A stretch of 23,902 bases of DNA from a virus: positions 1 through 23,902 of IMG/VR virus record IMGVR_UViG_3300043419_000112, one strand, 5' to 3'. The notes beneath the pieces are model-generated. The model was not told the DNA's origin, searched no databases, and saw only the letters and a list, made by a program, of their open reading frames with translations. Shown one piece after another: positions 3,042 through 21,864 of this stretch; position 1 is the stretch's first letter, and each line of letters begins with the position of its first letter. Both the position numbers and the translations under genes were made by a program.

Positions 3042-3470
3042 GTTTACTTCTATCCCTGACTTTTTAAGAAACTCTAATCCCGCCATGTCCCTATAACTAT
3101 TGCGGTAGTATACATTAGATATGCCGCTTTGGTATATAAGTTTGGCACAATCAAGACAAGGAGCATGAGTAATAAAAACACTAGCATTACTACCACTTTG
3201 GCTCGAACGGGCCAACTTTGCAATCGCATTAGATTCAGCATGAAGTACCTCTGGTCTTGTTTTAAGTTCTGTTGTGTAGTCGTTATCTTCTTCTACAAGA
3301 ACTTCATATTCGCAATTATTATCCCACCCAGCAGGCATACCATTGTACCCGTAGCTGATAACACTATCGTCTTTGACAATGACGGCCCCAACCTGTAATC
3401 TTTTAGCATGACTAAGCTGGGCTGCTCTTTCCGCCCAATCCATGTACATGTTAACAAACTTTTCTTTCAT
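3027..3470 (-). CDS. cd: Deoxycytidylate (dCMP) deaminase
   Basis: This 147-residue member of the cytidine/deoxycytidylate deaminase family carries the zinc site HAE (H77, E79) and PCLDC (C105, C108), with E79 the proton shuttle. The N-terminal ER-AAQLSHAKRLQVGAVIVKD and YNGMPAG segments are typical of dCMP deaminases. It would convert dCMP to dUMP, feeding dTMP synthesis for phage DNA, as T4 gene cd does. The length is near the family norm of about 150. Its ATG shares one base with the stop of the clamp-loader gene (TAATG), implying coupled translation. Its last codons form one arm of the phoH terminator hairpin. No pathway partner such as thymidylate synthase is in the window. Confidence 0.93.
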   Translation of the reverse strand: MKEKFVNMYMDWAERAAQLSHAKRLQVGAVIVKDDSVISYGYNGMPAGWDNNCEYEVLVEEDNDYTTELKTRPEVLHAESNAIAKLARSSQSGSNASVFITHAPCLDCAKLIYQSGISNVYYRNSYRDMAGLEFLKKSGIEVNKVGE

Positions 3471-4393
3471 TATAGTCTTGCTAATCTAGCTAATGTTGCG
3501 CTGAGATTAATTTCTGGATCGATTACCAAGGTATGGTCGACCATACCTTGTTTTAGGATCTGAATAGCTTTAAACTGCTTCTCGTCGTCACCGAAGACTT
3601 CGATGTTATCATACAGCCATCTATAGATATCTCCCATATCATCGGCCTGTACTTTACCGCAAAGCATTTTTCTAGCCTCATTAATTTTGCCTGCTTTAAA
3701 AAGTTCAACCATGTCGAACTTCCATTCGGCAAGCCCCGAGTCACTCTTAGCAGGAGGATGCAGTTTTCCTTCACTGCAATTTTGTTGCAGTAGATTGATA
3801 CATTTTCTTAAATCTGGATATGTAGTTGACACATAGAGATCGAGATTGTCGAGATCGAACTCTATATTTTCTTCTACTAAGATAGTTGCGGCTCTTGCAG
3901 TAAACTCAGTTTGATCAAGTTTAGTAAAATGAAACTGCTGGCAGCGACTATGCAGTGCAGGAACAATACGACTAGGAGTGTTGCATGTTAAAATGAATCT
4001 AGCAAATCTAGAATATTCTTCCATAACACCTTTGAGAGCATCTTGTGCCTCAGGGCTCAATCGATCAGCCTCGTCGAGTAGTACAACCTTAAACGGACCA
4101 TATGGAATCATCTGTACAAAGTTTGTAATTTTTTCACGTACAACAACACCGATACCCGTTTCTCGACTGGCGTTAATCTCTAACACATCGAATGGTTCAA
4201 TACCAATCTCGTGTACTAACATTTTAGCCATAGTAGTTTTTCCAATACCAGGTGTTCCGCTCAGCAGTAGGTGAGGAATACTTTTGTCAGTAACCCACGA
4301 ACTAACCTGCCTTCTTTGTCCTTCGTCTCTCCAGACATATTCATCTAATGTTTTAGGTCTATATTTTTCAACCCATAGTTCTTTTATGCTCAT
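3470..4393 (-). CDS. 44: Sliding-clamp loader ATPase subunit (T4 gp44-like)
   Basis: This 307-residue AAA+ ATPase is of the replication factor C / T4 gp44 type. It opens with WVEKYRPKTLDEYV, the classic clamp-loader start. Walker A is GTPGIGKT (46-53), Walker B ends in DEAD (107-110), the sensor 1 region is LTCNTPSRI (135-143) and the arginine-finger SRC motif is at 149-151. The C-terminal third is the helical collar domain. With gp62 it would load the gp45 clamp on DNA for the phage polymerase. gp62 was not recognised in this window. Its start overlaps the stop of the small membrane-protein gene by four bases (ATGA), and its stop overlaps the deaminase start by one. Assignment to the gp44 group is confident. 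Confidence 0.95.
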   Translation of the reverse strand: MSIKELWVEKYRPKTLDEYVWRDEGQRRQVSSWVTDKSIPHLLLSGTPGIGKTTMAKMLVHEIGIEPFDVLEINASRETGIGVVVREKITNFVQMIPYGPFKVVLLDEADRLSPEAQDALKGVMEEYSRFARFILTCNTPSRIVPALHSRCQQFHFTKLDQTEFTARAATILVEENIEFDLDNLDLYVSTTYPDLRKCINLLQQNCSEGKLHPPAKSDSGLAEWKFDMVELFKAGKINEARKMLCGKVQADDMGDIYRWLYDNIEVFGDDEKQFKAIQILKQGMVDHTLVIDPEINLSATLARLARL

Positions 4394-4557
4394 ACCATCT
4401 CCTCTAAAATACCAAGTCCCTCAGCAACAATAAGACTGGCACCACATAACACAGGAAACCCCATGATCAAAGCAATACCCGCGCCAATGCGGATAACACT
4501 TTTTGCCAAGCTAACATAAAAATGTCCTCGGCTTGTATCCTTAGGTTGTATTTCCAT
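4390..4557 (-). CDS. Small membrane protein, 55 aa
   Basis: The protein begins MEIQPKDTSRGHFYVSLAKS and carries one long hydrophobic stretch, about residues 21-48 (rich in I, G, A, L), ending GILEEMV. It is most likely a single-span or hairpin membrane protein with a short N-terminal soluble part. I chose ATG 4557 because AAAGGAT stands at a good distance. ATG 4575 and TTG 4578 lack a site. It lies between the cytidylyltransferase gene (17-nt overlap) and gp44 (4-nt overlap), so it is translated as part of the coupled run. No family was recognised and the function is unknown. Confidence 0.72.
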   Translation of the reverse strand: MEIQPKDTSRGHFYVSLAKSVIRIGAGIALIMGFPVLCGASLIVAEGLGILEEMV

Positions 4558-4975
4558 TTTTAATCCTTTCTGCATCAACTACTCGTTGACGTAATTCTGT
4601 TGTTGAGAAACTATGCCTGCGTTCGTTAAAATGTAGGATTACATTATTATCGATACATTGGTATTTGCCAGTAAATTCAACATCTCGGTATTCTGCACCT
4701 AGTATTCTAACATTTATAGGGTAACTAAGCAATATGTCAACTAGTTCTTTTTCCGTAGCATATACAACTACTTCGTCTACGTACTTACAAGCCTGTAGCT
4801 GTACATATCTTTCAAACACTGATTGTACAGGTTTGTTTTTATTAGGGCGATCGATAGTTGGATCAGTTTGTAATCCTACTATTAGATAGTCACATTGTTC
4901 TTTAGCTTCTTTGAGCATCATAATATGACCTGCGTGAAACAAGTCAAAGGTCGAACATGTAAATCCAGTCTTCAT
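4541..4975 (-). CDS. Cytidylyltransferase-like nucleotidyltransferase (TagD type)
   Basis: This 144-residue protein matches the small HxGH nucleotidyltransferase family of glycerol-3-phosphate cytidylyltransferase (TagD) and related enzymes. The CTP-binding HAGH motif is at 14-17, after the typical GFTCSTFDLF. The ER-(X)n-CKYVDEVV segment follows the first helix-strand pair. The second signature, usually RTxGISTT, appears as FSTTELR at 123-129. Such enzymes join CTP to a phosphorylated alcohol or sugar to give a CDP-activated donor. The substrate cannot be read from the sequence; glycerol-3-phosphate is the family's best-known one. With the UDP-sugar dehydrogenase nearby it hints at phage modification of surface or nucleic-acid glycans. 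The start overlaps the upstream stop as ATGA. Confidence 0.85.
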   Translation of the reverse strand: MKTGFTCSTFDLFHAGHIMMLKEAKEQCDYLIVGLQTDPTIDRPNKNKPVQSVFERYVQLQACKYVDEVVVYATEKELVDILLSYPINVRILGAEYRDVEFTGKYQCIDNNVILHFNERRHSFSTTELRQRVVDAERIKNGNTT

Positions 4976-5271
4976 TCTTCTTCCTCTGGTAACATTTTGT
5001 CAATAATAGGCTCGTCGCTGCCTGGAAAGTATGTAACATGATATTCTGTTTCACCTATCATGTAATAGTCAGTCCAGCTTTGCTGATTGTTAGTTTGTTT
5101 GTAAGGCTTAGTTAAATTTAGTAGAAGCATTGTATGCTGTTTCTCATCGCCCTCTAACGTCTTATGGGGAGGACCCATAACCCTACGCATGAACTCTTTG
5201 AGCTTTACAGGATCTTTCCGTAGCTCGGCTCCGTGAGCTCGTATACGTTTTAAATATTCTTCGTTAGTCAT
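4972..5271 (-). CDS. Hypothetical protein, 99 aa
   Basis: The protein begins MTNEEYLKRIRAHG and is charged, with a helical N-terminal half (to about residue 40), then a strand-rich half with DYYMIGETEYHVTYFPGSDEP and an acidic end (PEEEE). No membrane segment or known motif is visible. I chose ATG 5271 because the only farther in-frame start is TTG at 5292 without a ribosome-binding site. ATG 5271 overlaps the MazG stop by eight bases. Its own upstream site is weak, so it probably relies on ribosomes finishing mazG. Function unknown. Confidence 0.75.
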   Translation of the reverse strand: MTNEEYLKRIRAHGAELRKDPVKLKEFMRRVMGPPHKTLEGDEKQHTMLLLNLTKPYKQTNNQQSWTDYYMIGETEYHVTYFPGSDEPIIDKMLPEEEE

Positions 5272-5635
5272 TCTTTTTAAGGAACGGTGCAAGTTCAGGA
5301 GCCGTCCAACCTAATGGTTTGAGCACCTTGCCATCTTCGCGTTTGCGAACCTTACCTGTTTCACTATCGATCTTAGCAAAGTTAGTACGCATAACTTCTT
5401 TCCATGCGCCTTCGCCGTCTGCGCCCATTGAATGAATAGCACCAATAGTAACAACTAGAATATCGATTAGTGCATCAAGTGTTTCTACTTCATCACCTGC
5501 TGCCAATGCTTCTAGCAATTCTTTGTTTTCTTCTTGAATCAGTTTAACGTACATGTCAAACTGTGGGGTATCACCAGTGACGCTTTGGTCACAGGCTTTC
5601 ATAAACTTCGCTTGATCACGGAACGGATTTGTCAT
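5264..5635 (-). CDS. mazG: MazG-like nucleotide pyrophosphohydrolase
   Basis: This 123-residue all-alpha NTP pyrophosphatase carries the family's magnesium-binding pattern: EENKE at 35-39 (ExxxE type) and ETLDALID at 51-58 (E51, D54, D58). Cyanophage-type MazG proteins are similarly short, with one domain. They hydrolyse (d)NTPs to the monophosphate, with suggested preference for dGTP/dCTP or a role in lowering alarmone. Which applies here cannot be told. The C-terminus (KREDGKVLKPLGWTAPELAPF) extends past the core and resembles that of phage homologues. The start shares one base with the stop of the dehydrogenase gene (TAATG), so the two are coupled. Confidence 0.9.
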   Translation of the reverse strand: MTNPFRDQAKFMKACDQSVTGDTPQFDMYVKLIQEENKELLEALAAGDEVETLDALIDILVVTIGAIHSMGADGEGAWKEVMRTNFAKIDSETGKVRKREDGKVLKPLGWTAPELAPFLKKND

Positions 5636-6441
5636 TATAATTTCCTATGTTTTTTATTAATAGTTTCGACTTGTTGCATTAATTCAAAGTCGATATTTTT
5701 ATCTAATGCTTCTGTTATTATAGCAGCTATGTCCTTAGGAAAACAAGCACCGCCCCAACCTTTCTGACCATCTGTTCCCGGAACATTTATATGAGTTTGT
5801 CCGATCCTGTTATCTAACGTTAATAGGTATTTGATGTCGTTCCAACTGGTATCCTGGGCATCGGCGAGTTCTTTAAACTCGTTCATAAAGGTTACCTTCA
5901 TTGCTAGGTAACTATTCATCATGTATTTGAACAATGCCGCAGTCTGAATTGGAACATTAACAAATCTCTGGCCGCCTGGATTAACACATCTTCCCCTACG
6001 CACGGTTACCTCGGCCTTAGAAGTCCAGTTGGGATGACCTCCCATTACTTGATACTCGGCAGTCTGGTAGTCAACGATATTATTAGCAGCCGTTAGGAAT
6101 TCAGGAATGTGAACAATGTTTGGATATTGTTGTTGTAAACGTACATACACGCTCGGAGGTGCAGTTGTTTTGCAGATGATTGGGATTTGTTTGTTGATCA
6201 GAACAAACAAAAGATCTTTAAGAACTTGTTCTAAGATCGATGTATCGCATCGACCGTCTTCTAATGTAGGATCTACACACGGACTAGGAACGCAGACAAA
6301 AATAGCATCACATTTAGTTAGGTCTGCGTAGTTAACACTATCTGGATATTTTGGATCTTTGATTAGAATCTCATCGCTGTACTTATGAGCTTCTCTTACG
6401 GCCTGTCCAACATATCCGTACCCTACAATGCCAATAATCAT
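5635..6441 (-). CDS. UDP-glucose/GDP-mannose dehydrogenase family protein, C-terminal domain missing
   Basis: The 268-residue protein has the NAD-binding domain (GYGYVG at 7-12) and the central dimerisation domain with PEFL (113-116), the NSYLAMKVTFMNE helix (176-188, K182) and the nucleophile motif GGACFPKD with C233. Typical UDP-sugar dehydrogenases run 390-450 residues and end in a third domain that binds the UDP moiety. Here the chain stops about 35 residues after the catalytic cysteine with a basic end and a clean stop overlapping mazG. It would oxidise a nucleotide sugar to the uronic acid in two NAD-dependent steps if the missing domain is supplied by the dimer or not needed. Substrate unknown. 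It starts three bases after the upstream stop, with no good ribosome-binding site. Confidence 0.88.
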   Translation of the reverse strand: MIIGIVGYGYVGQAVREAHKYSDEILIKDPKYPDSVNYADLTKCDAIFVCVPSPCVDPTLEDGRCDTSILEQVLKDLLFVLINKQIPIICKTTAPPSVYVRLQQQYPNIVHIPEFLTAANNIVDYQTAEYQVMGGHPNWTSKAEVTVRRGRCVNPGGQRFVNVPIQTAALFKYMMNSYLAMKVTFMNEFKELADAQDTSWNDIKYLLTLDNRIGQTHINVPGTDGQKGWGGACFPKDIAAIITEALDKNIDFELMQQVETINKKHRKL

Positions 6442-6444
6442 ATA

Positions 6445-6684
6445 TTAAGACTTTAAAATCTTAATTATACGCTTTTGTTCTAGGTCTTTCAACCATGCAT
6501 CTTCCATTTCTCCGAAGTTTGGAGACTTCTCTAGTTCTCTATCTAAAACTTCTTTGATTAGATACAGGTCTTGTTTGCAGCCCCATTGGGTAAATCCGTC
6601 GTTGTATGAGCTGTTAGTTTCACGAGAGATACTGCGAATAGCATTCGCAATATCCCCAATGTCCCAGTTTTTTCTAAAGCCCAT
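6445..6684 (-). CDS. Hypothetical protein, 79 aa
   Basis: The protein starts MGFRKNWDIGDIANAIRS and is predicted mostly helical and soluble, with a tryptophan-rich, charged character (NDGFTQWGCKQDLYLIKEVL) and a basic end. I recall close relatives next to gp31 in marine T4-like phages, always uncharacterised, but I cannot confirm that here. The start shares one base with the gp31 stop (TAATG). An AT-rich inverted repeat (ATTAAGA at 6444-6450 with TCTTAAT at 6459-6465) covers its last codons and stop. Function unknown; the position suggests co-expression with the co-chaperonin. Confidence 0.78.
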   Translation of the reverse strand: MGFRKNWDIGDIANAIRSISRETNSSYNDGFTQWGCKQDLYLIKEVLDRELEKSPNFGEMEDAWLKDLEQKRIIKILKS

Positions 6685-7079
6685 TACCTTGCACCAAAAT
6701 CCTCGGGACGGACTGTAATACTATCTCCGTTCTTAATTTCATTGCCTATATAGAAATCATTGGGCTCTTCGTCTGTTACTGCTAAAATAGCATTGACATC
6801 GACTCTTTGTACTACTTTTGTGCCAGACCCGTCATCAATAGTGATTCCCCTGGTCCATCGTCCGTGTTCTACTAAAATCCATTGTCCAACATTAACATCT
6901 TTTTGGTCAGGGCCTATACAATAGACCTTACCCCATCTAGGTTTAATACCGTGAGATTTTGCATTGTCACTTTGCACTACAATGCCACTAGCAGTTTTCA
7001 TTTCTCCAAACTCCATGTCAGTGATGATAACATGGTCGTGCAGAGCTCGAATCTTGATATGCTTTACGTTGTAGGACAT
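6684..7079 (-). CDS. 31: GroES-like co-chaperonin (T4 gp31-like)
   Basis: This 131-residue protein aligns well with GroES. IRALHDHVII (10-19) matches the GroES start, the mobile-loop region ends in SGIVV with the hydrophobic tripeptide IVV (33-35) that docks into GroEL, and GKVYCIGP (about 50-57) and VGQWILVEHG (64-73) follow the GroES barrel pattern. It would replace host GroES on GroEL to fold the large capsid protein, as T4 gp31 does. It is longer than GroES (97) and T4 gp31 (111), with extra residues at the C-terminus (PNDFYIGNEIKNGDSITVRPEDF). It sits between two small genes of unknown role with gaps of two bases and one-base overlap. Confidence 0.9.
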   Translation of the reverse strand: MSYNVKHIKIRALHDHVIITDMEFGEMKTASGIVVQSDNAKSHGIKPRWGKVYCIGPDQKDVNVGQWILVEHGRWTRGITIDDGSGTKVVQRVDVNAILAVTDEEPNDFYIGNEIKNGDSITVRPEDFGAR

Positions 7080-7081
7080 TA

Positions 7082-7309
7082 TTAACCTTTCTTTCTAGGA
7101 GCTGTTTCTTCTGGTACTGCTCTTGGATTTGCAGAATAATAATCTTGTAGCAACTGTTCTCTGGTCTTAACAATCTGTCCGCCTGGTCCTAACTGGTCAC
7201 CACGAGCATTTACTTTCATGTTTCCCACTGCCGGCAACAGCTCGTTTTGAATGCTCAACTTTTCCATGTCTACTTGTTTGCCACGAAGGCTTGTGTATGT
7301 CTTACCCAT
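7082..7309 (-). CDS. Hypothetical protein, 75 aa
   Basis: A small basic protein beginning MGKTYTSLRGKQVDM. It has a glycine-rich centre (NARGDQLGPGGQIV) and a proline-rich, lysine-ended tail (APRKKG). Glycine/proline content suggests an extended or partly disordered chain rather than an enzyme. It resembles uncharacterised small proteins I recall from cyanophages, without a known role. The ATG at 7309 has AAAGGAGA upstream and overlaps the DnaE-fragment gene by eight bases. A late-promoter-like motif lies 38 bases upstream inside that gene. Confidence 0.8.
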   Translation of the reverse strand: MGKTYTSLRGKQVDMEKLSIQNELLPAVGNMKVNARGDQLGPGGQIVKTREQLLQDYYSANPRAVPEETAPRKKG

Positions 7310-7781
7310 TTGTTTCTCCTTTGAAGAATTCTTCTATTGGTATGCTGTATTTAATACTGTCGATCTTATGGACCCCTATCAAATAGAGTGCATAACTAGC
7401 TACACTTGATCCACGCCCAACTCCCCAAACTATTTTATTTTTACGCAGAATATCTACAATATATTTCATGACATTTAGTACTTCAAACATATTGTGGTCT
7501 TTAAAGAGTGCGATCTCTTTAATAAGACGTTGACGATTTTCTTCCGGGCATTGCTCGTGTAAAAACTTTTCAATGTCGAGTGTTTTATAATCGTTTGGAA
7601 TAAACCAGTTTTTTGAGTTGATAGAATCTGTTGGTACTGGATAATCTAAACGCTCTGTGAAGATTCTCTGTATATATGATTCTATTATTTGGGGATCTGT
7701 AACAGCATAGTTTAAAATATCAGGACCGTGACGCATCACACCTGCTACTAAATCATCTACGCTGTTAAGTTTAATCGACAT
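7302..7781 (-). CDS. Stand-alone fragment of DNA polymerase III alpha subunit (DnaE), non-catalytic
   Basis: Residues 78-153 of this 159-residue protein match the region of bacterial DnaE just before the active site. ENRQRLIKEI corresponds to the EYxERLExEL helix, and WGVGRGSSVASYALYLIG (119-136) to the GPGRGSxAGSLVAYxLG signature of the palm. The next segment, HKIDSIKYSIPIEEFF, corresponds to TDLDPLxxxLLFERFL. In a real polymerase the catalytic PDxDxDF motif follows within a few residues. Here the protein ends six residues later (KGETNG), so no catalytic aspartate is present. The first 75 residues are unrecognised. It cannot be a polymerase alone. It may bind nucleotide or primer, or interact with host replication proteins. 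It overlaps its neighbours by 11 and 8 nt in a run that also holds gp44. Confidence 0.85.
   Translation of the reverse strand: MSIKLNSVDDLVAGVMRHGPDILNYAVTDPQIIESYIQRIFTERLDYPVPTDSINSKNWFIPNDYKTLDIEKFLHEQCPEENRQRLIKEIALFKDHNMFEVLNVMKYIVDILRKNKIVWGVGRGSSVASYALYLIGVHKIDSIKYSIPIEEFFKGETNG
7348..7353 (-). promoter_or_regulatory. Late-promoter-like motif (TTAAATA) inside the DnaE-fragment gene
   Basis: The minus strand reads ATTAAATAC, 38 bases before the ATG at 7309. It shares the TAAATA core with the other candidates but lies within coding sequence, so chance is more likely here than for the intergenic copies. Confidence 0.25.
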
Positions 7782-8004
7782 TAATTAATTGATCCAAATC
7801 GCCGCTGTCATTGCCTTGCATTTTTTGTCTGTAACGCTTTGACAGCTCTTCTTTATATATTGTAATGAATGTAGCGATTTGTGTCAATAGTTCAGGTTTA
7901 CCTAAACGACTGGCAGTATAGTACTTCCTATTAAGTTCATTTAGCTTATCTTCAACTTCGTTATCTTTCAATAAGCTAAGATCACCTTCAAATGGATGTA
8001 TCAT
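7771..8004 (-). CDS. Hypothetical helical protein, 77 aa
   Basis: The protein starts MIHPFEGDLSLLKDNEVEDKL and is almost wholly predicted helical and charged, with heptad-like leucine spacing (about 10-60) that suggests a short coiled coil, and an acidic end (SGDLDQLINVD). I recall similar 70-90 residue proteins in marine T4-like phages, uncharacterised. Its start overlaps the stop of the 191-residue virion gene as ATGA, and its end overlaps the DnaE-fragment gene by 11 nt, so it links the structural block to the replication block. Function unknown. Confidence 0.78.
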   Translation of the reverse strand: MIHPFEGDLSLLKDNEVEDKLNELNRKYYTASRLGKPELLTQIATFITIYKEELSKRYRQKMQGNDSGDLDQLINVD

Positions 8005-11653: not shown

Positions 11654-13894
11654 TTAACTAATAAACCCTGTACTTGGCGTCCATGCACCGTCTACAAACA
11701 CAGCAGTTGCTAATGCAGGTGTCATTAATCCTGCAGAGTTATATCTGGTTTTATCAAAAGGATTCCAATCGGCAGTAGTTGATACACTGACTACTCCTGT
11801 AGTCCCGTTTATCTTTCTGCCGTCAGATAGTCTTACCACTATCAAATCTACATCAGCACTTGACTGTGGAACAAAATGCATAATCTGTCCTTCAACTCCG
11901 TCTGCTAAAGAGAAGTTGCCTGAAGCTAACTTTTGAATAGATTTTGTTAGATCCAGTGCTGTGAATGTTTGTGTTATTGCAGTTACAGTTACAGTTAGGT
12001 CGTGTGTTGGAGTTAGACCGCCCAATGCTGTTCCTAGTACTGTAATGTTTTGAGATACTGAGAAGCCTGAACCACCGTTAATGATCGACGAACTAATGTT
12101 TCCAGATCCGTCAACAGTAAACTGCACACTGGCATTTGTTGTACCACCAGTTAGATCTAGAACATAGACACCTTCGTCCCAGTTAACGTTAGCTGTGGGG
12201 TTTAATGAGATAGTGGATATTACACCACTTGCTCCGCCTGTCTTCGAAACAAATGATCGAACATTTGGATCCACCCAACTTGCAGTTCCTAAACCATTAG
12301 TTGCTAACACAGCATTAGCACTTCCATCTGTAGCAGGTAGACTAAATCCAGGGGTACTTAGAGTTCCGTTGGCATTGAATGTCCACTCATAACCAGTACC
12401 TTGTGCATCAGCAACGATACTAACAATACCTTCTGCTTCTAGATTAACATCAGTAATACCACGTACTTCGAAGTTACTATCTGCTGAATCGAGTATAGCA
12501 CCGCCGGGAAGTGTTAAAAGTCCAGTAGGACCAAACACCCATCCATGAACAGTTCCGCTAAAATTACCAGCTGAGATCTTTACACCTTCGAGTGCATCAC
12601 CGTCAGTATTAAATCCAATAGTTGCTAGTTTAAGACCACTAGTAGACGACCATCCTAAAAGTGCATGAGAATTATCACCCGGAGTTAGTATGTGAATTGA
12701 TTCATTAGCAGCTTGAATCATCATGGTTCCGAGACTTGGGCTATAATCACTTAACAGAGCAACTTTTAAACCAGTAGGAGTATCCAATGCACCGTTATCA
12801 CCAAACTGCCATTCATAACCTGTACCTTGTGAATCTGAGATTAAGCTGATAATACTTTCTGCTTCAAAGTTAACATTGGTAACACCACGCACTTCAAAAT
12901 TGCTGTCCGAAGAATCTAAGATAGCTCCACCAACCATTGATATTGTTTCTGCAAGAGGCCCAACGATTTGTCCACCAGTAGCGTCGACTAGCATTGATGA
13001 GTTGTCTGCAAAAATAGAACCAACGATATCTACATGATTGTCGAATCCTATTGTGACAGTATCAGAACTAGCGTCTGTTGCTAGGGTGATAGCACCTGTT
13101 CTTGCGATGTTTAGTGTATCGGAGTTATTATCTGCTCTGATTGAAGGTTGACCAGATACTGATACATATTCAAAACTTCTAATAGTTGATGCAGGAGAAC
13201 CATTGGTAACTGTAACGACTCCTGTAGATACGTCAACAATCATTCCGTTGCCAGCTTCTAATCTCGTAACACCTGAGTTAGTTAGTGTTACTGCGCCTAC
13301 GCCTGCGTTTATTCCGATACCATTTCCAGCGGTTAAGGAAGTTACACCTGCATTGGTAATAGTAACGTTTCCAGTACCTACACCACTAACAGCAATACCT
13401 GTCCCTGCAATGTTTCTCAAGACACCTGTATTAGAAATACTTAATGTATCGGTTGCATCATTGGTAGTGATTTCCACCCCAGATCCTGCGGAAAAGTTTA
13501 ATGTGTCAGTTCCCTCATCAGCTTCGATTGTAGTTTGTCCTGCAACTGCAACAAATTTGAAGTAGTTCTCGTCTACCCTGAGTCCGTCAATAGTTGAACC
13601 GGCTGGAAGATTAATAGTTGAACCAGTGGATGTAATCTGGGCGTTGCCTACATACAATGAGTTACCGCTCAGATAAAGATCTTTCCATCTTTTGGTAGGA
13701 GATCCTAAATCGTATACTTCACTGTTTCTAGGGATAAGACTAGTACCCAGAGTTGTAAAGTCTACAACAGCACCCCCGCTTCCTTCTACAGTAGAGTAAA
13801 GTTCTGTAAAGTTATCATTTATTTTTTCAAACTCTTGCTGTACCTTACTCCACACTAATGGAGGAACTCCTGGATTTATTGTTTTTTGTGTCAT
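11654..13894 (-). CDS. Tail-fibre-type protein, 746 aa
   Basis: The N-terminal module ends FEKINDNFTELYSTVEG (about 23-39), as in its neighbours. Residues about 140-232 hold tandem 28-31 residue repeats of the form GVTxLxAGNGIxIxxxxGxVTLTN. Two longer near-identical segments, around 320-370 and 465-515, share GGAILDSxDSNFEVRG and GTGYEWxFxxNGxL. The C-terminal part (about 550-746) is a separate beta-rich domain ending DGAWTPSTGFIS. Repeats of this kind build trimeric beta fibres, so the protein is probably a side fibre or fibre segment, with the repeats setting length and the end forming the tip. The start shares one base with the stop of the giant fibre gene (TAATG), implying stoichiometric, coupled expression. 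Confidence 0.82.
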   Translation of the reverse strand: MTQKTINPGVPPLVWSKVQQEFEKINDNFTELYSTVEGSGGAVVDFTTLGTSLIPRNSEVYDLGSPTKRWKDLYLSGNSLYVGNAQITSTGSTINLPAGSTIDGLRVDENYFKFVAVAGQTTIEADEGTDTLNFSAGSGVEITTNDATDTLSISNTGVLRNIAGTGIAVSGVGTGNVTITNAGVTSLTAGNGIGINAGVGAVTLTNSGVTRLEAGNGMIVDVSTGVVTVTNGSPASTIRSFEYVSVSGQPSIRADNNSDTLNIARTGAITLATDASSDTVTIGFDNHVDIVGSIFADNSSMLVDATGGQIVGPLAETISMVGGAILDSSDSNFEVRGVTNVNFEAESIISLISDSQGTGYEWQFGDNGALDTPTGLKVALLSDYSPSLGTMMIQAANESIHILTPGDNSHALLGWSSTSGLKLATIGFNTDGDALEGVKISAGNFSGTVHGWVFGPTGLLTLPGGAILDSADSNFEVRGITDVNLEAEGIVSIVADAQGTGYEWTFNANGTLSTPGFSLPATDGSANAVLATNGLGTASWVDPNVRSFVSKTGGASGVISTISLNPTANVNWDEGVYVLDLTGGTTNASVQFTVDGSGNISSSIINGGSGFSVSQNITVLGTALGGLTPTHDLTVTVTAITQTFTALDLTKSIQKLASGNFSLADGVEGQIMHFVPQSSADVDLIVVRLSDGRKINGTTGVVSVSTTADWNPFDKTRYNSAGLMTPALATAVFVDGAWTPSTGFIS
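12353..12510 (-). repeat. Intragenic repeat copy 1 in the 746-aa fibre gene
   Basis: This stretch and 12779-12940 encode closely similar segments of about 50 residues (SNFEVRGxTxVNxEAE and GTGYEWxF). The DNA similarity is also high by eye, roughly three bases in four over most of the length. This points to internal duplication within the fibre gene. Confidence 0.7.
12779..12940 (-). repeat. Intragenic repeat copy 2 in the 746-aa fibre gene
   Basis: Partner of the copy at 12353-12510. The two copies are about 270 bases apart, and the stretch between them encodes unrelated beta-rich sequence that ends with VHGWVFGPTGLLTLPGG. Such duplications can change fibre length by recombination. Confidence 0.7.
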
Positions 13895-16800
13895 TATGCT
13901 CTTCCTACGGCAACTTCGATTGTGCCAATATGATCTGAATCAAAGTTTGATAAAGATTTACCTATGATAGTTCCTGCTTTAACATCTCCTTTGGCAGCAA
14001 CAGCTACACCAGGAATATTGGAAGTTACCAACAGATCTCCCTTACTAACTTTTCCTACTACCTTACAAGGTACTCGACCCTGTAAAGCAATACATGCTCT
14101 AGTTCCTTCGCAGCCGCTGTTCATAACATATGCAGGATCTGTAGTAACAACACCTGCTACTCTTGAATCACCATATGTATTTCCTGTTGTAACTTCTTCA
14201 GAACCACCAAATACCAACACGGTACCTGGTGCATAGTCCTTGTCTGCCTTGTAGTACTCTGCCAAGTCGGCATAAGTTGCTTGCAATCTACTACCAGCTG
14301 ATAGACCCCAGTTTCCTGTAATAGTTCCCGCTGTACTAGTACCACCAGTAGTCAGTGCAGTAACTTGAATACTTGATGCTGTGATAGGAGAATAACCAAC
14401 GCCGTTCTGCGGACGGAAGATATGTCCTTCGTTATCATAATAGTTACGTTTGTCTGATGATAGACTTCCGTCGCCTAGTAAGATAGCTGCCTGCCCGGAA
14501 TAACCGTAAAGCTGCATAACACCACCACCACCGGAGGTTGTTGTATCTGCAAATAGTTTAGTATCTAGTTTAAACTGCTCACCGGTAATAACACGACCTG
14601 CAAAGTCGCCGTTGCTGTCTCTCTTGACTAGCGTACTGACAGTGTTAGTTGAAGATTCTTCAACCATTTCATAACTGTCGCCAATACCGTTTCCGGTATC
14701 ACCTGCAGATGTCAACGAGTTCTTTCTGCGTAGATAACCTGTTGTAGTATAGTTGGACTTCTTGATTGCAAGACCTTCGTTAACAACAGTTGCAAACGTT
14801 ACACTAGTTACGTTAGCTGTACTAGCAGATGAGTTACCTAATACAGTATCTGCACCTAGTTGAGGCAATGCACTTAGTGGAGTTCCATTATCTTTTAATG
14901 TTACCCAACCGTTAGTAACTGTAAACTCTGCACTGTCAAAACTTGCTAGTCCTCTGTCAGCTTGTGTAATACCGGTAGCATTTGCTCTAGTACTTGCTGC
15001 TGTCATGTTTAGCTTACTTTGAGCAATTGCAGCAGCGGAGTTAATATCTGCATCAATAATTGTGTTTGGAACAATCTGAGCATCTATTGTATGCGCTGTA
15101 CTGTCAATGCTTAGACTAATATCACCTACTACTGTAGAGTTTTGAATATTGTTACCGGCACCGGTAAATGTTACCAAGTCTGCAGATTGTATGTTTCCAA
15201 AATCTGAATCTTGGAAGTTAGCCCATGTTAAACTTCTTAGGTTTACTGCATCCTGTGCATCGACTGGATCACTTACATTTATAACTCTATTGTTATCTAG
15301 GTTCAACGCTCCCTTCATAGCCAGTTGACCATCAAGGGCCATGTAGCCGCCTGTGATTGAAGGTATTAAACTTTCTGCCGGAACAATAGAACCAGTATGA
15401 CTTAGGCCCAACCTACGTTCGATATAGGTTCTTGCTGCATTTTCTGTTGGTACTGTATCTGTTGCGTTGTCAGAGAATGCAGAGTCTGTTGAGAACTCAG
15501 CAATCGGAACACCACGTTTGAAACCAATACCGTCTAGGTTACTTAAGGCAATAGCTGCGGAGAATGTTACTCGACCAGTACCTTGGTCAACACGGAAATA
15601 TGGACCAACGTTGAAGTTACCAAACTGGTCAGTAGTTACATAGAAGCATCGTCCTACTCCGCGTTCTTCGGTTTCGGCAGCAGCATTAAGCGCATTGACC
15701 GCGGCACCGTAGATTTCGTTCGGATAGTTGGTATCGGCATAAGAACCAGTACCGATTTCTAGCAAGTCATGGCCTGTAACACGAGTTAAAGAAATACGAA
15801 TTGTAAGAGTTCCTGGCTCGTCTTTAGGTACCGCTGATTTTAAAGTTGGCATAGAGTTGTATAGCACAACACTGTCTACTAACGCAGGATTAAGCGTTAG
15901 CATTGAATACGGTTGTCCAGTTACAGATTCGTTATCATATGCAACAACTTCATATTCCTCACCAATCCAAACTAACTTACTTCCTAAGATCCTTGCCTCT
16001 TCGTCGGGCCCAACAGGAACCACAGCAAACTGATTGTCTCCAGCATTTCCAATAACCTTACCTATAGTATGAACTCCGCTTTGTGTTCCTGTAGTCTCAA
16101 TAGGCGACCCGCCGACTGATGCTGTAACCCTAAATGTGCTACCGGATAGAATTGCCTCAACAAAATACATTCTGGTAACAGTTAATCCAGAAGGCAGACT
16201 TCCAGTAGTCTCGAATCTGACAACATCATTAACACTTAACCCGTGACTTGCTTTGGTAACAACAGCAGGGTTGGCAATAGAAATAGTACAGGTACCTGAA
16301 GATTCGTATGGCTGAGTTGGCCATACTGTTAGATCTACATAATTGTAGTTTTCTCTTAGTGTTGTTCTTGCTAATCCTTCTACAGTGTATGAATGAACTC
16401 CACTCTGTGAACCAGAAGTTGCAATAGCAAGCCCGCCCTTAGTAGATCCTATTTGGAAACTATTTTCAGTCCAGTTGTCTGCCAATACATAATAAATGTC
16501 AGAAGTACTTACCCCCGTAGGCAAGCTACCGGTAGTTGCAAATGAGATTTGATACCCTGGTTGAAGTCCGTGTCCTACTTTGGATACCACCGCCGGATCA
16601 GCAATACTGATGGTAAATGTTCTAGCACCTTCTGGGTCGTTATATGCTTCAAACTGTAGAATACGATAAACGTCCGGACTTTCTCTTAAGACCAAACCAG
16701 TTGATGGTCTTGTAGCAACTTCAACAACATCACCGGTTAAGACTGTTTGAGAATTTTGTCTGATTGTTAGTTTAGTACCGTCAGGTATCACATCAAACAA

Positions 16801-19800
16801 TCCATCAACGCCGGCACCTTCAGATGCTGACAAGTTTAGTTTAGCAACACCAGCAGGTAGATCGTCAGTGCTTACAGATGTGATAGGATATCTATAGATT
16901 GCATATCCGTGATCGACTTCGAGTTCTCCGTTGTTTAATGGAGCATAGGTATAGTTGGTTACATAAAGTTGTAGTCCGCCGGCAACGTTGGTATATGTAC
17001 CACCATCGTTATAACATTCGGCACCCTGCGCTAGATCGTAGTATAGTGTAACAGGAGTTGGAATCTCTAACGGGTCAGCTCCCTCGGCAACTAGAGCATA
17101 AACACCGTGTGCTGATGAGCTAGCAACAGAACGAATCTGTCCGCCGTTTAACGAATACATTGAAATATAGCAGTAGTATGAGAACATACTAACAGCTTCG
17201 CATAATCCGCCGTTTGTAACAATAACACCATAACCCATGTCGTTAATCTGTGTGTAGTCGTTACCTAACATAGATCTGTTACCAGGCATCAATACTTCAT
17301 ATATGTTGGCATTGTCTTCAACAAATGCAATAGTTCCAGATTGTATTGCAGACTTCTCAGTGTCAAGAATATCTTTAGCAGACTTCAGTGTTGCTGAATA
17401 TGCATAAGCATCAAGATCTGGATATACTGCTGTAGGAATAGACCCAGTGCCTCCAGTAATAACACTGGAAATCACAGTCATCAAATTGCTAATAATTGTG
17501 GCTTCAGCGGAACTGGCTGCTGTACCTGTTACTCTAGGAGTTGAACTGTAAGTAGATGCTGGTGCAAGATTTTGCACAACACGTTGCGCTAGATAACTGG
17601 CATAGTTTACCGCAGCAGCAGTTTCTTCTTCCTGACCAGCGGCGAGTTGTAGTTCTTCGGCAGATCCTACACCATCATAGTATTTTAATGCAGCGTCTCT
17701 AGTTTGACTGTTACCACCGTATAACAAGTCGTAGATTACGGCTTCGATAATGTAACCAACATCGCGAGCACATCTTACAGAGTCGTATGTAAACAGTGTA
17801 GAAAATGGAGCAATATTTCCAGCAATCTGTGCGTTCATCCAGCCAATAGTCTCATCTTTAATAAATGCGATATTACTGAATAATAAAGACTTAGCATTAG
17901 CTACGTTTGTAGAAACTCCAGTAGGGTTTGTAAATGTTAACGAAGGAGCAAAGGTTGCTCCATTCTGAACAACGTTAGCAATACTGGTCTTGCTAGTTTG
18001 AACAACTAACTGTGCAGAACTGTAACCGTCCAACAATCCGCTGGCAATGTCGTGTGCTTCTTCGATAGCAGCAACAGTTAAGGTCAACTGATCGTTAATA
18101 ACTACCGCAGCATTGGCCTGTCTATAGGTCAATCCTGCTTTGCGGGCATTGTAGTTTGTGCCCAACACCATGTCGTATCCTAGACCGTCGATAATGTAAC
18201 CTACGTCTCTAGAACAGATATCTGGATCATATGTAAACAGATCAAAAGTCCAAGGTGTTGTCTCGTCTAGAATAAACGATGCTGTCGATCCTGAGGTATT
18301 AAATGTCCAATCTCTAATGTAGTTAATACGATAGATGTTGTCATTAACAATAAAGCTACATGGTACGTTAGGCATTCTCTTTAGGCCGCCAACACGTAGG
18401 AATGTATTTGAATCTTTACTTAGGATTTCAAACTTTAAGTTACCGGTAAAACCGTCAATGAACTGACCACCGGCAAACGTGTGAACACCTGTACTCTTAG
18501 TAAAGCTCGCACACTCTTGAGCATACGGAGATTTAGCAAGGATTTGGCCTTCTGGGTCAAGTACCATACCAAAACCACCATGGCCTTGGAAAGTTAGTGC
18601 TTGGAAACGAACAGCATCGTTACACAAGAACATGTCCATCTGATCGTTATCTTTTGGATAGTTAACGCTACCGGAGCCATCAATTACATCAATCAGCGCA
18701 TCAATCAATGCACCAACAACACCTCTTGGTTCTGTTACAGTACCGCCACTTGCATAAACTCCGAAGTCGCTACTGTCGATTTGATCAGATCTATCAGCTA
18801 GTTCATGAATAGTAAACGATGTTGATGTTAGTACTGTAACATAATAGTCGTTACCATTTATTTCAGTAGTACCATTTATACCGCCGATAACAACTTGATC
18901 GCCGTTTGATAATCCATGGTCTGTAGATGTTGTAACAACAATAGGATCAGCATTTGATACATTAGTAATATTGATACTGGTTCCAACAGCTCCTACTTCG
19001 GCAATATATGCACCGTCAACAATCTGTGGAAGTATACCGCCGTACAGTTCTGTTACTTGAATATTCTTGATGACTAGCTGTGCTAGAGTATTGATTCTTC
19101 TTATAGCAGCAGTTGTTTCGGAAAGCTGAGTTGTAATGGCTAGTCGTCCGCTAGCATTACCGTAATACTTTAAACCTGCTGATACAGTTCTATTGCTTCC
19201 ACCCCACTTTAAGTCGAAGATCATAGAATCTAAAATCAATCCTACATCTCTTTCGCATAGTGAAGAATCGTATTGGAAAGCACTAGTATATGGAGCAATG
19301 TTATTTGCAATCTGATGATTGATCCAACCAATGACCTGTTGTTGAATGAACTGTCTGTTCAATCTTAACAGTTCGGCAGCAGATCTGTAATATCCCTTGT
19401 TGTTTACTAATGGATATACAGGTGCAGTTGAATCGGTCAGATAATGATAACCGTAGAGTTGAGTTGCAACAGTTAAACCGTTGATTTCTGGTTCTCTTCT
19501 GAAATAGGTAAACGCCCAAGGGCTTGAACTTACGCCCGGCTTTGGACGAATAATACAGCGTCTAAACTCGTTACCAACAATAGAAACGTTTTGTGGCACA
19601 CGTAGCGGTAAGTTTTCTTCATAGATACCACTTTCTACAAGAATTGTTATCTGGGTAGTCTTTGTAAAGTCACCATAAGAGATTGTTTCTCCTAGTTCAA
19701 ATGTCCCGTATAAAATGTCAACGTCAAATATTTCATTGCCTAGACTGTCTAGTTCGCCGGAGTGAGATAAGATTTGTGCAAGAGCTCCGGAATTTTCACC

Positions 19801-21282
19801 TCGAAGATATAGACCTTCTCTAATATCTCTTCCTCTGATAGCAGTAGGAGTTCCTGTAGTTACATCGCCTGTAAAGTCTGTTCTGTAACCGTCCGTTTTG
19901 ATCAAGAAGCGAGGCAAGTTAACAACAACGTTTGGAAGATTAGTAAAGCCACTACCACCGTCGGTGATTGTAATACTTTGAATAACACCTCCGATAACGT
20001 CAGCAGTACCGAACGCACCACTACCGCCTCCTCCTTCGATACGTACAGACACCAGTCCATACCCGCTACCGCCATCTAATACCTGTGCATTGTTTACTCT
20101 GTAGGTAACATTAAATGTAGCACCTGCCCCAAAGTCGCTATCAGATACAGTTGCAACAGATGCACTGCCGGGTAAGGCCGTATAAACACCAGAACTTAGT
20201 TGCCTAAAGGAAATAACAGGACCCTTAGAAGTCCCCGGTAATGCACCAACGGACAGAACTTCGTATCTAGCAGGCTCGCTAAATGTTCCACCGCTTAGTG
20301 TAATGATGTCACCGACACTGTAGTTTGTACCAGGAGCAGAAAGACTGATAGTATTAACACTCATCAATACCTGACCGCTAAATCCTGCACCGGAACTCGG
20401 AGCAACATCGATATCTTGTAGTTCGCAGAAACCAACTCCGTTGTTGTAGGTTAATACCTTTTTATATGGTCCTATTTCTTTTCTTGATTCTAAAACAATC
20501 TCTTCAGCTCTTTTTAGAGCAGCTTCCAACGATCTGTAAGCATAGGCCAATGCTCGACCTTGTAATGCTATGCTAACACCTACTCGGTCATCTTCACCGG
20601 ATGTTGCAACATATAAGTTAACTGTGCTACCGAACGCAGAGTTATCAACATATCGTTTTGTGGCGGCAATCATTCCTCCGTAGACTTCGTCGTCGTCGGG
20701 TACAGGATCTCTAGCTAAGATCAAGGGCCCGGTCATTGTACCAAATGCACTGTTAGTAGTTCCAGTTGCTGGGTCAATGGCGTTTACACCGGCTCTAGCA
20801 AGTTTAGAATCTGCGTATGCTTTGTTAACAGCTTCATGTGAATATATTGGTTCTAACGGTGCTCCGCTAGTTCCTAAATCTAAAATACGATATTGATTAC
20901 CACCGGATTTTGCACTTAGATTTCCGCCAAGTTGCGGGCTAGGATCTCCCGATATTTCGGAAAATTCTGAGTTGATTAAGATTTCATTTTCGTTAGAAGT
21001 AAAATCTAACGAAACACCTGTGCCTGCTCTAAGGTGTTTAAACTGTATTCCAGATTCTGTACTGTTAATAGTTAATACAGGAGTGGCTCCTGTTTCTGGA
21101 TCATTTTGTCCAACATAAGATAGTGGAGTATCGTCTAGACCGATGAATGTTAGTTTTTCACCTAGTCCTAACGAACTGTATAACTCTCTGAAGTTATCGT
21201 TTACTTTTCTAAACGAGTCACGAATACTATCTCCGGTACCGTCATTACCAACGGTACCAATGTCTATTACTTTTCTTGCCAT
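13894..21282 (-). CDS. Giant tail-fibre protein, 2462 aa
   Basis: The gene takes almost a third of the window. Domains in order: the shared N-terminal module (IDIGTVGNDGTGDSIRDSF then RKVNDNFRELYSSLG, 6-39); fibre repeats such as EAVNKAYAD (about 150); a beta-helix-like stretch ITILVESGIYEENLPLRVPQ (about 543-562); three modules beginning CxRDVGxII (near 675, 1022, 1169); three HGL-type beta domains (about 770-855, 1557-1634, 1660-1740); then DAVNLRSL (about 2020) and ADINSAAAIAQSKL (about 2085), typical of phage fibres. From about 2335 there is a C-terminal domain (DLAEYYKADKDYAPGTVLVF through LQGRVPCKVVGKVSKGDLLV) seen at the end of many marine phage fibres. It is probably a homotrimeric long tail fibre carrying receptor-binding and chaperone-like ends. 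AGGA precedes the ATG, and a late-promoter-like motif lies 30 bases upstream. Confidence 0.88.
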   Translation of the reverse strand: MARKVIDIGTVGNDGTGDSIRDSFRKVNDNFRELYSSLGLGEKLTFIGLDDTPLSYVGQNDPETGATPVLTINSTESGIQFKHLRAGTGVSLDFTSNENEILINSEFSEISGDPSPQLGGNLSAKSGGNQYRILDLGTSGAPLEPIYSHEAVNKAYADSKLARAGVNAIDPATGTTNSAFGTMTGPLILARDPVPDDDEVYGGMIAATKRYVDNSAFGSTVNLYVATSGEDDRVGVSIALQGRALAYAYRSLEAALKRAEEIVLESRKEIGPYKKVLTYNNGVGFCELQDIDVAPSSGAGFSGQVLMSVNTISLSAPGTNYSVGDIITLSGGTFSEPARYEVLSVGALPGTSKGPVISFRQLSSGVYTALPGSASVATVSDSDFGAGATFNVTYRVNNAQVLDGGSGYGLVSVRIEGGGGSGAFGTADVIGGVIQSITITDGGSGFTNLPNVVVNLPRFLIKTDGYRTDFTGDVTTGTPTAIRGRDIREGLYLRGENSGALAQILSHSGELDSLGNEIFDVDILYGTFELGETISYGDFTKTTQITILVESGIYEENLPLRVPQNVSIVGNEFRRCIIRPKPGVSSSPWAFTYFRREPEINGLTVATQLYGYHYLTDSTAPVYPLVNNKGYYRSAAELLRLNRQFIQQQVIGWINHQIANNIAPYTSAFQYDSSLCERDVGLILDSMIFDLKWGGSNRTVSAGLKYYGNASGRLAITTQLSETTAAIRRINTLAQLVIKNIQVTELYGGILPQIVDGAYIAEVGAVGTSINITNVSNADPIVVTTSTDHGLSNGDQVVIGGINGTTEINGNDYYVTVLTSTSFTIHELADRSDQIDSSDFGVYASGGTVTEPRGVVGALIDALIDVIDGSGSVNYPKDNDQMDMFLCNDAVRFQALTFQGHGGFGMVLDPEGQILAKSPYAQECASFTKSTGVHTFAGGQFIDGFTGNLKFEILSKDSNTFLRVGGLKRMPNVPCSFIVNDNIYRINYIRDWTFNTSGSTASFILDETTPWTFDLFTYDPDICSRDVGYIIDGLGYDMVLGTNYNARKAGLTYRQANAAVVINDQLTLTVAAIEEAHDIASGLLDGYSSAQLVVQTSKTSIANVVQNGATFAPSLTFTNPTGVSTNVANAKSLLFSNIAFIKDETIGWMNAQIAGNIAPFSTLFTYDSVRCARDVGYIIEAVIYDLLYGGNSQTRDAALKYYDGVGSAEELQLAAGQEEETAAAVNYASYLAQRVVQNLAPASTYSSTPRVTGTAASSAEATIISNLMTVISSVITGGTGSIPTAVYPDLDAYAYSATLKSAKDILDTEKSAIQSGTIAFVEDNANIYEVLMPGNRSMLGNDYTQINDMGYGVIVTNGGLCEAVSMFSYYCYISMYSLNGGQIRSVASSSAHGVYALVAEGADPLEIPTPVTLYYDLAQGAECYNDGGTYTNVAGGLQLYVTNYTYAPLNNGELEVDHGYAIYRYPITSVSTDDLPAGVAKLNLSASEGAGVDGLFDVIPDGTKLTIRQNSQTVLTGDVVEVATRPSTGLVLRESPDVYRILQFEAYNDPEGARTFTISIADPAVVSKVGHGLQPGYQISFATTGSLPTGVSTSDIYYVLADNWTENSFQIGSTKGGLAIATSGSQSGVHSYTVEGLARTTLRENYNYVDLTVWPTQPYESSGTCTISIANPAVVTKASHGLSVNDVVRFETTGSLPSGLTVTRMYFVEAILSGSTFRVTASVGGSPIETTGTQSGVHTIGKVIGNAGDNQFAVVPVGPDEEARILGSKLVWIGEEYEVVAYDNESVTGQPYSMLTLNPALVDSVVLYNSMPTLKSAVPKDEPGTLTIRISLTRVTGHDLLEIGTGSYADTNYPNEIYGAAVNALNAAAETEERGVGRCFYVTTDQFGNFNVGPYFRVDQGTGRVTFSAAIALSNLDGIGFKRGVPIAEFSTDSAFSDNATDTVPTENAARTYIERRLGLSHTGSIVPAESLIPSITGGYMALDGQLAMKGALNLDNNRVINVSDPVDAQDAVNLRSLTWANFQDSDFGNIQSADLVTFTGAGNNIQNSTVVGDISLSIDSTAHTIDAQIVPNTIIDADINSAAAIAQSKLNMTAASTRANATGITQADRGLASFDSAEFTVTNGWVTLKDNGTPLSALPQLGADTVLGNSSASTANVTSVTFATVVNEGLAIKKSNYTTTGYLRRKNSLTSAGDTGNGIGDSYEMVEESSTNTVSTLVKRDSNGDFAGRVITGEQFKLDTKLFADTTTSGGGGVMQLYGYSGQAAILLGDGSLSSDKRNYYDNEGHIFRPQNGVGYSPITASSIQVTALTTGGTSTAGTITGNWGLSAGSRLQATYADLAEYYKADKDYAPGTVLVFGGSEEVTTGNTYGDSRVAGVVTTDPAYVMNSGCEGTRACIALQGRVPCKVVGKVSKGDLLVTSNIPGVAVAAKGDVKAGTIIGKSLSNFDSDHIGTIEVAVGRA
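16055..16615 (-). repeat. Tandem HGL-type beta domains in the giant fibre gene
   Basis: Two copies of about 70-80 residues share ISIAxPAVVxKxxHGL, a TTGSLPxG stretch, GGxxIxTxGxQSGVH and intervening strands. A third, more distant relative with HGLSNGDQVVIGGING lies at about 18720-18975. The fold may be like the FCCH-type beta domains found in phage tail proteins. Confidence 0.7.
17673..17788 (-). repeat. CxRDVG module, copy 3, in the giant fibre gene
   Basis: Encodes CARDVGYIIEAVIYDLLYGG and about 18 more residues ending LKYYD. It is preceded upstream in the protein by IGWMNAQIAGNIAP, which pairs with the same stretch before copy 1. With the copies at 18118-18232 and 19160-19272 it forms a three-member protein-level repeat. 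Confidence 0.75.
18118..18232 (-). repeat. CxRDVG module, copy 2, in the giant fibre gene
   Basis: Encodes CSRDVGYIIDGLGYDMVLGT followed by NYNARKAGLTYRQ. It is less similar to the other two copies in its second half and lacks their upstream IGWxNxQIAxNIAP segment. Confidence 0.7.
19160..19272 (-). repeat. CxRDVG module, copy 1, in the giant fibre gene
   Basis: Encodes CERDVGLILDSMIFDLKWGG and about 15 more residues ending LKYYG. It is preceded by IGWINHQIANNIAP, as in copy 3. The conserved cysteine may matter for structure or metal binding, but this is unknown. Confidence 0.75.
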
Positions 21283-21353: not shown

Positions 21354-21641
21354 ATGTTCTTAAAAACAGAAATAGAGCAGTCAGAGTATACCCGTACCAG
21401 CAAAAACAACTTACAGCACACTTATAAGCGTTCTAAGACGGTGGCTGTGTTTCGTTGTGACAACTGTGATGCAGAGTTTAGGCGAGAGTTAAAGAAAGTA
21501 CATCGTAAGAGATTGAGCAATAACTATTTTCATGTTTGCTCAAACTGTGATGCAAAGAGATTTGCCCAACGTAAGGGTGTTGAGCGGAAGCAGATATGGG
21601 ATTTACCCGCTAGTGTTACTCTTCCTGTGGGGAAGTATTAA
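21354..21641 (+). CDS. Zinc-ribbon hypothetical protein, 95 aa
   Basis: This small basic protein has two cysteine pairs, C35-x2-C38 (FRCDNCDAEF) and C62-x2-C65 (HVCSNCDAKRF), spaced like a zinc ribbon, with basic residues between them (ELKKVHRKRLS) suited to nucleic-acid contact. The N-terminal 30 residues are polar and probably flexible. No nuclease signature is visible. It could be a transcription- or translation-associated zinc protein or a small nuclease relative; I cannot say which. No ribosome-binding site precedes the ATG, and no other methionine occurs in the protein. The last 26 bases overlap the 3' end of the convergent acyl carrier protein gene. Confidence 0.75.
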   Translation: MFLKTEIEQSEYTRTSKNNLQHTYKRSKTVAVFRCDNCDAEFRRELKKVHRKRLSNNYFHVCSNCDAKRFAQRKGVERKQIWDLPASVTLPVGKY

Positions 21642-21864
21642 GAAGCTTAGTTAAACTATCAATAGCGTCTTGTACCGTTTTGATCTGTTCTGTATCAGAA
21701 TCAGGAATCACAACATTAAATCGGTCTTCTATTGCTAGTACGATTTCAACAGTGTCTAAACTGTCTGCACCGAGGTGTGCAAACTTTTGAACATTGTTTA
21801 TTCTTTCTACTTGTGTGTATAACTTTTCTGCAATAATTTTTTTGATTTCGAACTCGATATCCAT
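21616..21864 (-). CDS. acpP: Acyl carrier protein
   Basis: This 82-residue acidic helical protein has the acyl carrier protein signature GADSLDTVEIV (32-42). S35 is the site that would receive 4'-phosphopantetheine. The helix I start (FEIKKIIAEKL) and the EDRFNVVIPDSD helix II-III loop fit bacterial ACP well, and the length is usual (about 75-85). In bacteria, ACP carries acyl chains for fatty-acid and lipid synthesis in the cytoplasm. In a phage it might redirect host lipid synthesis, supply an acyl group for modification, or act on host enzymes that bind ACP; none of this can be decided here. It stands alone on its strand, converging with the zinc-ribbon gene. Upstream lie two small inverted repeats, and its own ribosome-binding site is weak (GAG). 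Confidence 0.92.
   Translation of the reverse strand: MDIEFEIKKIIAEKLYTQVERINNVQKFAHLGADSLDTVEIVLAIEDRFNVVIPDSDTEQIKTVQDAIDSLTKLLNTSPQEE

Follow-up and report, generated by a model that had tools for sequence, protein, structure and literature searches.

A split minimal DNA polymerase III (Pol III) alpha was described in group 2.2 jumbo phages by Iyer et al. 2021 (PMC7824862), and in the passages of that paper considered here its authors propose that the two units form an active enzyme. Passages of three other reports note a truncated 172-aa copy in phage CBB (PMC5259590), a gene for a Pol III alpha subunit in most RaK2-like phages and in Atu_ph07 (PMC6102473), and a marine jumbo cluster of which 51.9% has the domain PF07733 (PMC9123017). 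We recognized no laboratory test of a split enzyme in the open-licence PMC full-text literature.

The DNA analyzed here, referred to as the window, is a 23,902-nucleotide stretch of a viral record from IMG/VR. On its minus strand lies an intact 159-aa open reading frame (ORF). We consider it likely that this gene encodes the N-terminal nucleotide-binding half (N-half) of a minimal family C polymerase of the Pol III alpha type, made up of two polypeptides. Most probably N-half and the catalytic C-half are encoded separately and belong to a very small DNA polymerase found in many large phages, and N-half is not a leftover or decoy derived from a bacterial enzyme. The gene and the neighbors discussed below are as follows.

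7771 to 8004, minus strand: X77, 77 aa, with a weak match to PHROG 15348 (E=6.2e-4); overlaps the N-half start by 11 nt.
7302 to 7781, minus strand: candidate N-half, 159 aa, of a split minimal Pol III alpha (PF07733, PHROG 11127 and predicted fold); a mostly helical extension of about 52 aa leads into the beginning of the DnaE palm, which contains the nucleotide-binding motif GxGRGS.
7082 to 7309, minus strand: Y75, 75 aa, PHROG 14844; overlaps the N-half stop by 8 nt.
6684 to 7079, minus strand: GroES-like co-chaperonin, PF00166 with E=4.6e-7 (Pfam and PHROG).
3470 to 4393, minus strand: clamp loader of the T4 gp44 type, PHROG 168 with E=1.7e-77.

PF07733 (DNA_pol3_alpha) matched N-half residues 70 to 155 at profile positions 11 to 96 of 260 (E=1.5e-12; 48.1 bits, cut-off 23.9). 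This was the sole Pfam domain on the 159-aa protein, and PHP and other Pol III domains are absent from the chain. PHROG 11127, labeled "DNA polymerase," matched residues 14 to 154 with an E value of 5.8e-38. Against PDB sequences, the single N-half sequence gave weak matches (best E=0.19); a profile built from 19 relatives matched nine DNA polymerase III alpha chain sequences with E values of 7e-6 to 7e-5, and nothing else in the PDB fell below E=0.5. The profile match corresponds to E. coli DnaE 320 to 393 and ends eight residues before the first Asp of the catalytic motif. The GxGRGS motif was invariant in all aligned N-halves of two alignments (46/46 and 19/19). The sequence-only reading had recognized a DnaE palm entry, with GVGRGSSVAS and a protein end just before PDxDxDF. 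Both features are present in the 159-aa protein, and the palm assignment is borne out by PF07733, PHROG 11127 and the 19-row PDB profile, so that the profile searches returned a strong DnaE match. The catalytic Asp of the DxDxD motif is absent from the chain, as the window protein stops before the motif. The earlier interpretation was right in seeing part of a family C palm that includes the nucleotide-binding (GS) motif; its portrayal as a solitary fragment, decoy or inhibitor is not supported.

A gene of this kind could be what is left of a decayed polymerase gene, or a full-length one disrupted by a frameshift; N-half is far shorter than cellular DnaE, and the CBB copy is called "truncated" in the part of its report considered here (PMC5259590). 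We regard the probability of this as next to negligible. In a 102-kb IMG/VR contig, 12,477 bp around the N-half gene equal the window at all but one base, and the N-half coding sequence is identical. The stop falls 29 to 37 residues after GxGRGS in 149/149 N-half loci from IMG/VR and reference phages, which amount to 119 distinct frames since some contigs were fetched twice. Because of this constant stop and the identical copy in the 102-kb contig, the N-half gene is not an assembly artefact. The 159-aa ORF is complete and free of internal stops, in agreement with the earlier description of an intact gene. The pattern D[IV]D[IVL]D occurred in none of the 149 related N-half frames, and fused or closely adjacent halves occurred in none of 150 N-half and 167 C-half sequences (duplicate contigs and the window included) with flanks of up to about 6 kb. 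A neighboring frame continuing with PDxDxDF had been named beforehand as the sign of a frameshift, and no missing half was found in the window. On the constant stop and the lack of a C-half match in the window we reject frameshift or truncation.

Over 660 N-half pairs with dS<1.5, the median dN/dS was 0.29; 80 pairs exceeded 0.5, the maximum was 0.71 and all 660 were below 1, which also argues against a remnant. The 15 closest pairs gave values of 0 to 0.26. These data indicate that the N-half gene is kept under purifying selection, a point that the sequence-only reading had left to be checked.

The missing motif was found in relatives. The Pfam PF17657 finger-domain search gave five matches in 4/17 records, all under the family cut-off; four were real C-halves and the fifth was a 558-aa frame of GAP32. 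These sub-threshold matches led to the C-half gene, a separate gene of about 190 to 215 aa (PHROG 11778) that starts where N-half ends. It begins with the missing motif, as MPDIDIDF in contig G007 and as DIDIDF after a short extension in phage 121Q. The G007 C-half matched PHROG 11778, "DNA polymerase," with an E value of 1.2e-64. C-half was present in 63 phage records, and an IMG/VR scan gave at least 553 relatives; of 80 retained IMG/VR matches, 77 begin MPDIDIDF. A second gene with the rest of DnaE, for which a search had been proposed, thus exists elsewhere in the genomes of relatives, and the claim of a solitary fragment fails because in relatives the complementary catalytic half has a gene of its own. 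C-half has also been annotated as a "putative membrane protein" in CBB and GAP32. Seven loci with C-half relatives (L361 to L367) came from a species-genome collection, all on contigs titled MAG with bacterial or archaeal names, one of 335 kb in a Neomarinimicrobiota bin; these contigs may be misbinned phages.

C-half contains the DxDxD strand, KxDFL with the third catalytic Asp, and the finger motifs RPxK and KSHAxAY. D3/D5/D7, K66/D68, R135-P136-K138 and the finger His were invariant in 17/17 diverse aligned C-halves. The DxDxD and third Asp residues have catalytic roles in family C enzymes, in which the thumb is located between the second motif Asp and the third catalytic Asp. That distance is 63 residues in C-half versus 164 in the DnaE structure 5lew, and the RPx Arg is 33 to 34 residues from the finger His versus 120 in 5lew, the 5lew positions coming from weak match stretches. 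Because these spacings are shorter, C-half probably has neither the thumb nor the middle of the fingers.

With the thumb and some of the fingers apparently gone, activity as a polymerase is uncertain, and a different nucleotidyl-transfer reaction is possible. The two halves might then form a nucleotidyltransferase other than a template-copying DNA polymerase, such as a terminal transferase or an enzyme that makes or extends primers, a reading that we consider unlikely. Besides the short spacings, it is favored by a primase annotated three to four genes downstream of C-half in CBB, MIJ3 and Phosso, and as primase/helicase in Slickus01. However, a primase is not annotated near the C-half of RAS14, and neighborhood alone is weak evidence. 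The DnaE-type finger motifs RPxK and KSHAxAY are kept, and all C-half fold matches with Z above 3.0 are DNA polymerases, both of which weigh against this reading.

The overlay on E. coli DnaE that had been suggested for the window protein was made with AlphaFold models of both halves (mean pLDDT, 81.9 for N-half and 90.1 for C-half). Residues 53 to 159 of the N-half model aligned to E. coli DnaE 276 to 398, M. tuberculosis 304 to 418, Taq 293 to 460 and 9qrn 820 to 966. Residues 1 to 190 of the C-half model aligned to 400 to 809, 419 to 858, 461 to 841 and 970 to 1301 of the same chains, respectively. In these models, the two halves map to abutting DnaE ranges without overlap, with the N-half match ending at E. 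coli residues 397 to 398. For untitled structure chains the species names are presumptive; 9qrn, titled only "DNA polymerase," is probably PolC by its numbering. All ten N-half fold matches were DNA polymerases (Z 6.1 to 10.4), and for C-half thirteen polymerase rows (Z 6.0 to 9.6) preceded the next row at Z 3.0. These VIA Z values, 6.0 to 10.4 for both halves, are moderate, and the Foldseek E values are weak (best, 0.0013 for C-half and 0.044 for N-half). N-half residues 1 to 52 lie outside the DnaE fold matches, which begin at residue 53. The C-half profile gave weak but collinear matches to the same PDB chains, on 5lew from residue 412 onward, with a whole-chain E value of 0.0012 and no single stretch significant.

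As judged from aligned sequences and predicted folds, the halves are complementary and their active-site motifs are conserved; their docking, activity and role we infer. C-half, about 192 aa long and encoded at a great distance, would supply the strand with DxDxD, the catalytic Asp of KxDFL as the third, and the RPxK and KSHAxAY motifs of the fingers. Docked across the palm sheet, the pair would make one active site, in which the N-half GxGRGS loop would hold the incoming triphosphate and C-half would hold two metal ions and the template/primer.

Both halves were found on 11 IMG/VR contigs. In nine of them (G007, G020, G021, G023 to G026, G028 and G029), C-half shares the strand of N-half and lies 159 to 187 kb downstream; in G027 the strand is likewise shared, with C-half about 39 kb upstream. 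G013 (578 kb) has the two on opposite strands, separated by 186 kb. All seven reference phages compared (121Q, GAP32, MIJ3, SCTP-2, Phosso, RAS14 and Slickus01) contain both halves as separate genes, with the smallest separation, about 11 kb, in Slickus01. The record of this Alishewanella phage is circular, 141.6 kb long and titled complete genome; jumbo size is therefore not required for the split pair. No cyanophages were among the matches listed, a listing that may omit records close to the window.

A comparison of 61 N-half accessions with 60 C-half accessions gave 58 phage accessions in common. The N-half set comprised the split-type rows among the best 60 of 100 records in each of two listings; rows H59, H98 to H100 and H102 to H120 had lower identity, looked like full-length DnaE and were left out (the record of H100 is without annotation). 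The C-half set comprised 60 of 63 rows. OR805294 and MT001829 lacked C-half in the compared list and may be among the three omitted C-half rows, the records of LC768485 (85.7 kb) and PP728206 (109.5 kb) are short and each has a single half, and in the compared list OQ508956 had C-half without N-half. The motifs were intact in both halves of 16/16 genomes checked. N-half distances correlated with C-half distances across 16 genomes (Mantel r=0.83, p=0.0001), a correlation that could also arise from shared descent without interaction.

C-half was not found in the window or in its near-identical 102-kb contig with either a single sequence or a 17-row profile, and the same searches were negative in eleven N-half contigs, the 102-kb one included. 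The 17-row profile detects C-half in 6/6 other contigs, two of them known carriers. Four of the eleven N-half-only contigs (G008 to G011) produced an identical match and appear to represent a single phage. Conversely, the N-half search of 14 C-half records was positive in seven, leaving seven C-half contigs without N-half; a repeat search of G016 and G018 again found none. The window and the 102-kb contig probably lack C-half because they are too short, and most one-half contigs could not hold the other half because they are too short for the usual spacing. Two are borderline by that spacing, the 230-kb G009 (N-half only) and the 280-kb G018 (C-half only). As the spacing is taken from contigs with both halves, the contig-length explanation is one of consistency, not proof.

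This co-occurrence bears on the idea, put forward by the sequence-only reading, that N-half alone acts as a decoy or inhibitor of host DnaE. N-half does resemble the host palm entry, and its helical N terminus falls outside the DnaE matches. Yet the complementary catalytic gene co-occurs with N-half in phages of very different hosts, and the invariant residues include the whole substrate-binding GS motif, not a host-specific surface. In view of the complementary C-half gene we reject a lone decoy as the main reading, and we judge the idea very improbable.

The overlaps of 11 nt upstream and 8 nt downstream agree with the coupling of N-half to both neighbors that had been proposed, and the run with the gp44 clamp loader (3470 to 4393, E=1.7e-77) is real. 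AAAGGAGA precedes the Y75 start, sitting within the last codons of the N-half gene. Relatives of the neighbors were identified with iterated profiles that started from the window genes, and were counted over 122 N-half loci distinct in sequence, using only those with enough flank. An X77 relative lies within 1 kb upstream of N-half in 114/119 loci and a Y75 relative directly downstream in 113/117. GroES relatives lie within 700 nt downstream in 107/110 loci and gp44 relatives within 3.4 kb downstream in 41/46. Y75, GroES and gp44 relatives were all absent from the N-half flanks of the 202-kb contig G005 (L035) and of Slickus01 (L180). X77 matched PHROG 11778, the C-half family, with an E value of 0.034, which we took as chance, and tblastn of X77 in phages gave no match.

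The conserved run with GroES, together with two virion structural protein families (PHROG) further along in the window, might suggest that N-half is a virion or assembly protein. Against this, CBB_328 (N-half) and CBB_287 (C-half) are both absent from the virion mass-spectrometry table of 55 proteins for CBB, a single phage, in the part of the source considered here, and a virion role appears extremely improbable. CBB_286, which overlaps the start of CBB_287 (L352 3134 to 4097), was detected in virions; CBB_287 was not.

Other genes of the window were also noted; those at 22333 to 23436, 21616 to 21864, 5635 to 6441 and 13894 to 21282 are on the minus strand. A 367-aa ORF (22333 to 23436) matches PHROG 8420 endonuclease (E=6.6e-79), and its product presumably resembles UvdE-type UV damage endonucleases. 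An acyl carrier protein is encoded at 21616 to 21864 (PHROG 5934, E=3.8e-16). A 268-aa UDP-glucose dehydrogenase-like protein (5635 to 6441) covers profile positions 74 to 295 of 382 and may lack the usual C-terminal part; near it is a nucleotidyltransferase-like gene (4541 to 4975, PHROG 7878). A 2,462-aa ORF (13894 to 21282) stands in a run with ORFs of 746 and 822 aa, and by position and look these are probably tail fibre or adhesin genes.

Family B polymerase (PF00136) was present in 15/16 records, the window fragment being the exception. The view that a family C piece is foreign to T4-like machinery fails accordingly, as relatives of N-half have a family B polymerase too. In MIJ3 (W03, 124889 to 128666), Slickus01 (W05, 3596 to 5100) and G009 (101670 to 104245), the family B matches are spread over two or three frames, so that gp43 itself looks split or interrupted in these sequences. 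The likeliest role of the split enzyme, to which we give about even credence, is that of an accessory polymerase beside the gp43-type replicase, filling gaps, serving repair or making one class of strand. More tentatively, it may be the smallest family C polymerase, with about 350 residues in two chains and without thumb, PHP, clamp-binding and OB parts, its genes often about 160 to 190 kb apart. It would serve as a second polymerase or primer-extending enzyme beside gp43 in jumbo and non-jumbo phages, perhaps completed by the nearly always adjacent X77 and Y75.

If the halves do form a working enzyme, it would be a family C polymerase cut down to about 350 residues, and would account for a bacterial-type palm being retained by phages that have a family B replicase of their own. 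The proposal of 2021 can be tested directly, given that the halves are defined, their active-site residues are invariant and relatives are in culture on laboratory E. coli. In the phage records listed, C-half often carries the label hypothetical or "putative membrane protein."

Like bacterial DnaE and PolC, N-half has the first part of the palm, the GxGRGS motif and, for residues 53 to 159, the predicted fold. Unlike them, its chain is without PHP, catalytic Asp, thumb, fingers and clamp-binding parts, and it has 159 aa versus 1,160 in the E. coli DnaE chain 5fku. PHROG 11127 and PHROG 11778 match N-half and C-half directly, and their labels do not say that these are halves of one enzyme. The marine jumbo cluster of PMC9123017 shares the Pfam domain, and the passages of that report considered here mention neither a split nor a partner. 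With the system of Iyer et al. 2021 (PMC7824862), as presented in the passages considered, N-half shares a stand-alone N-terminal NTP-binding unit and a chain from which other Pol III domains are absent; its relatives share a second gene, far from the first, that encodes the C-terminal metal- and template-binding unit, and also have a family B polymerase. New relative to those passages, though the supplements of PMC7824862 may hold part of it, are the constant stop and exact split point, the microsynteny with GroES and gp44, the probably missing thumb and the pair in a 141.6-kb phage. Unlike the jumbo phages of that description, N-half here comes from a 23.9-kb fragment of an uncultured phage, and the pair also occurs in a complete 141.6-kb phage, below the jumbo class (>200 kb).
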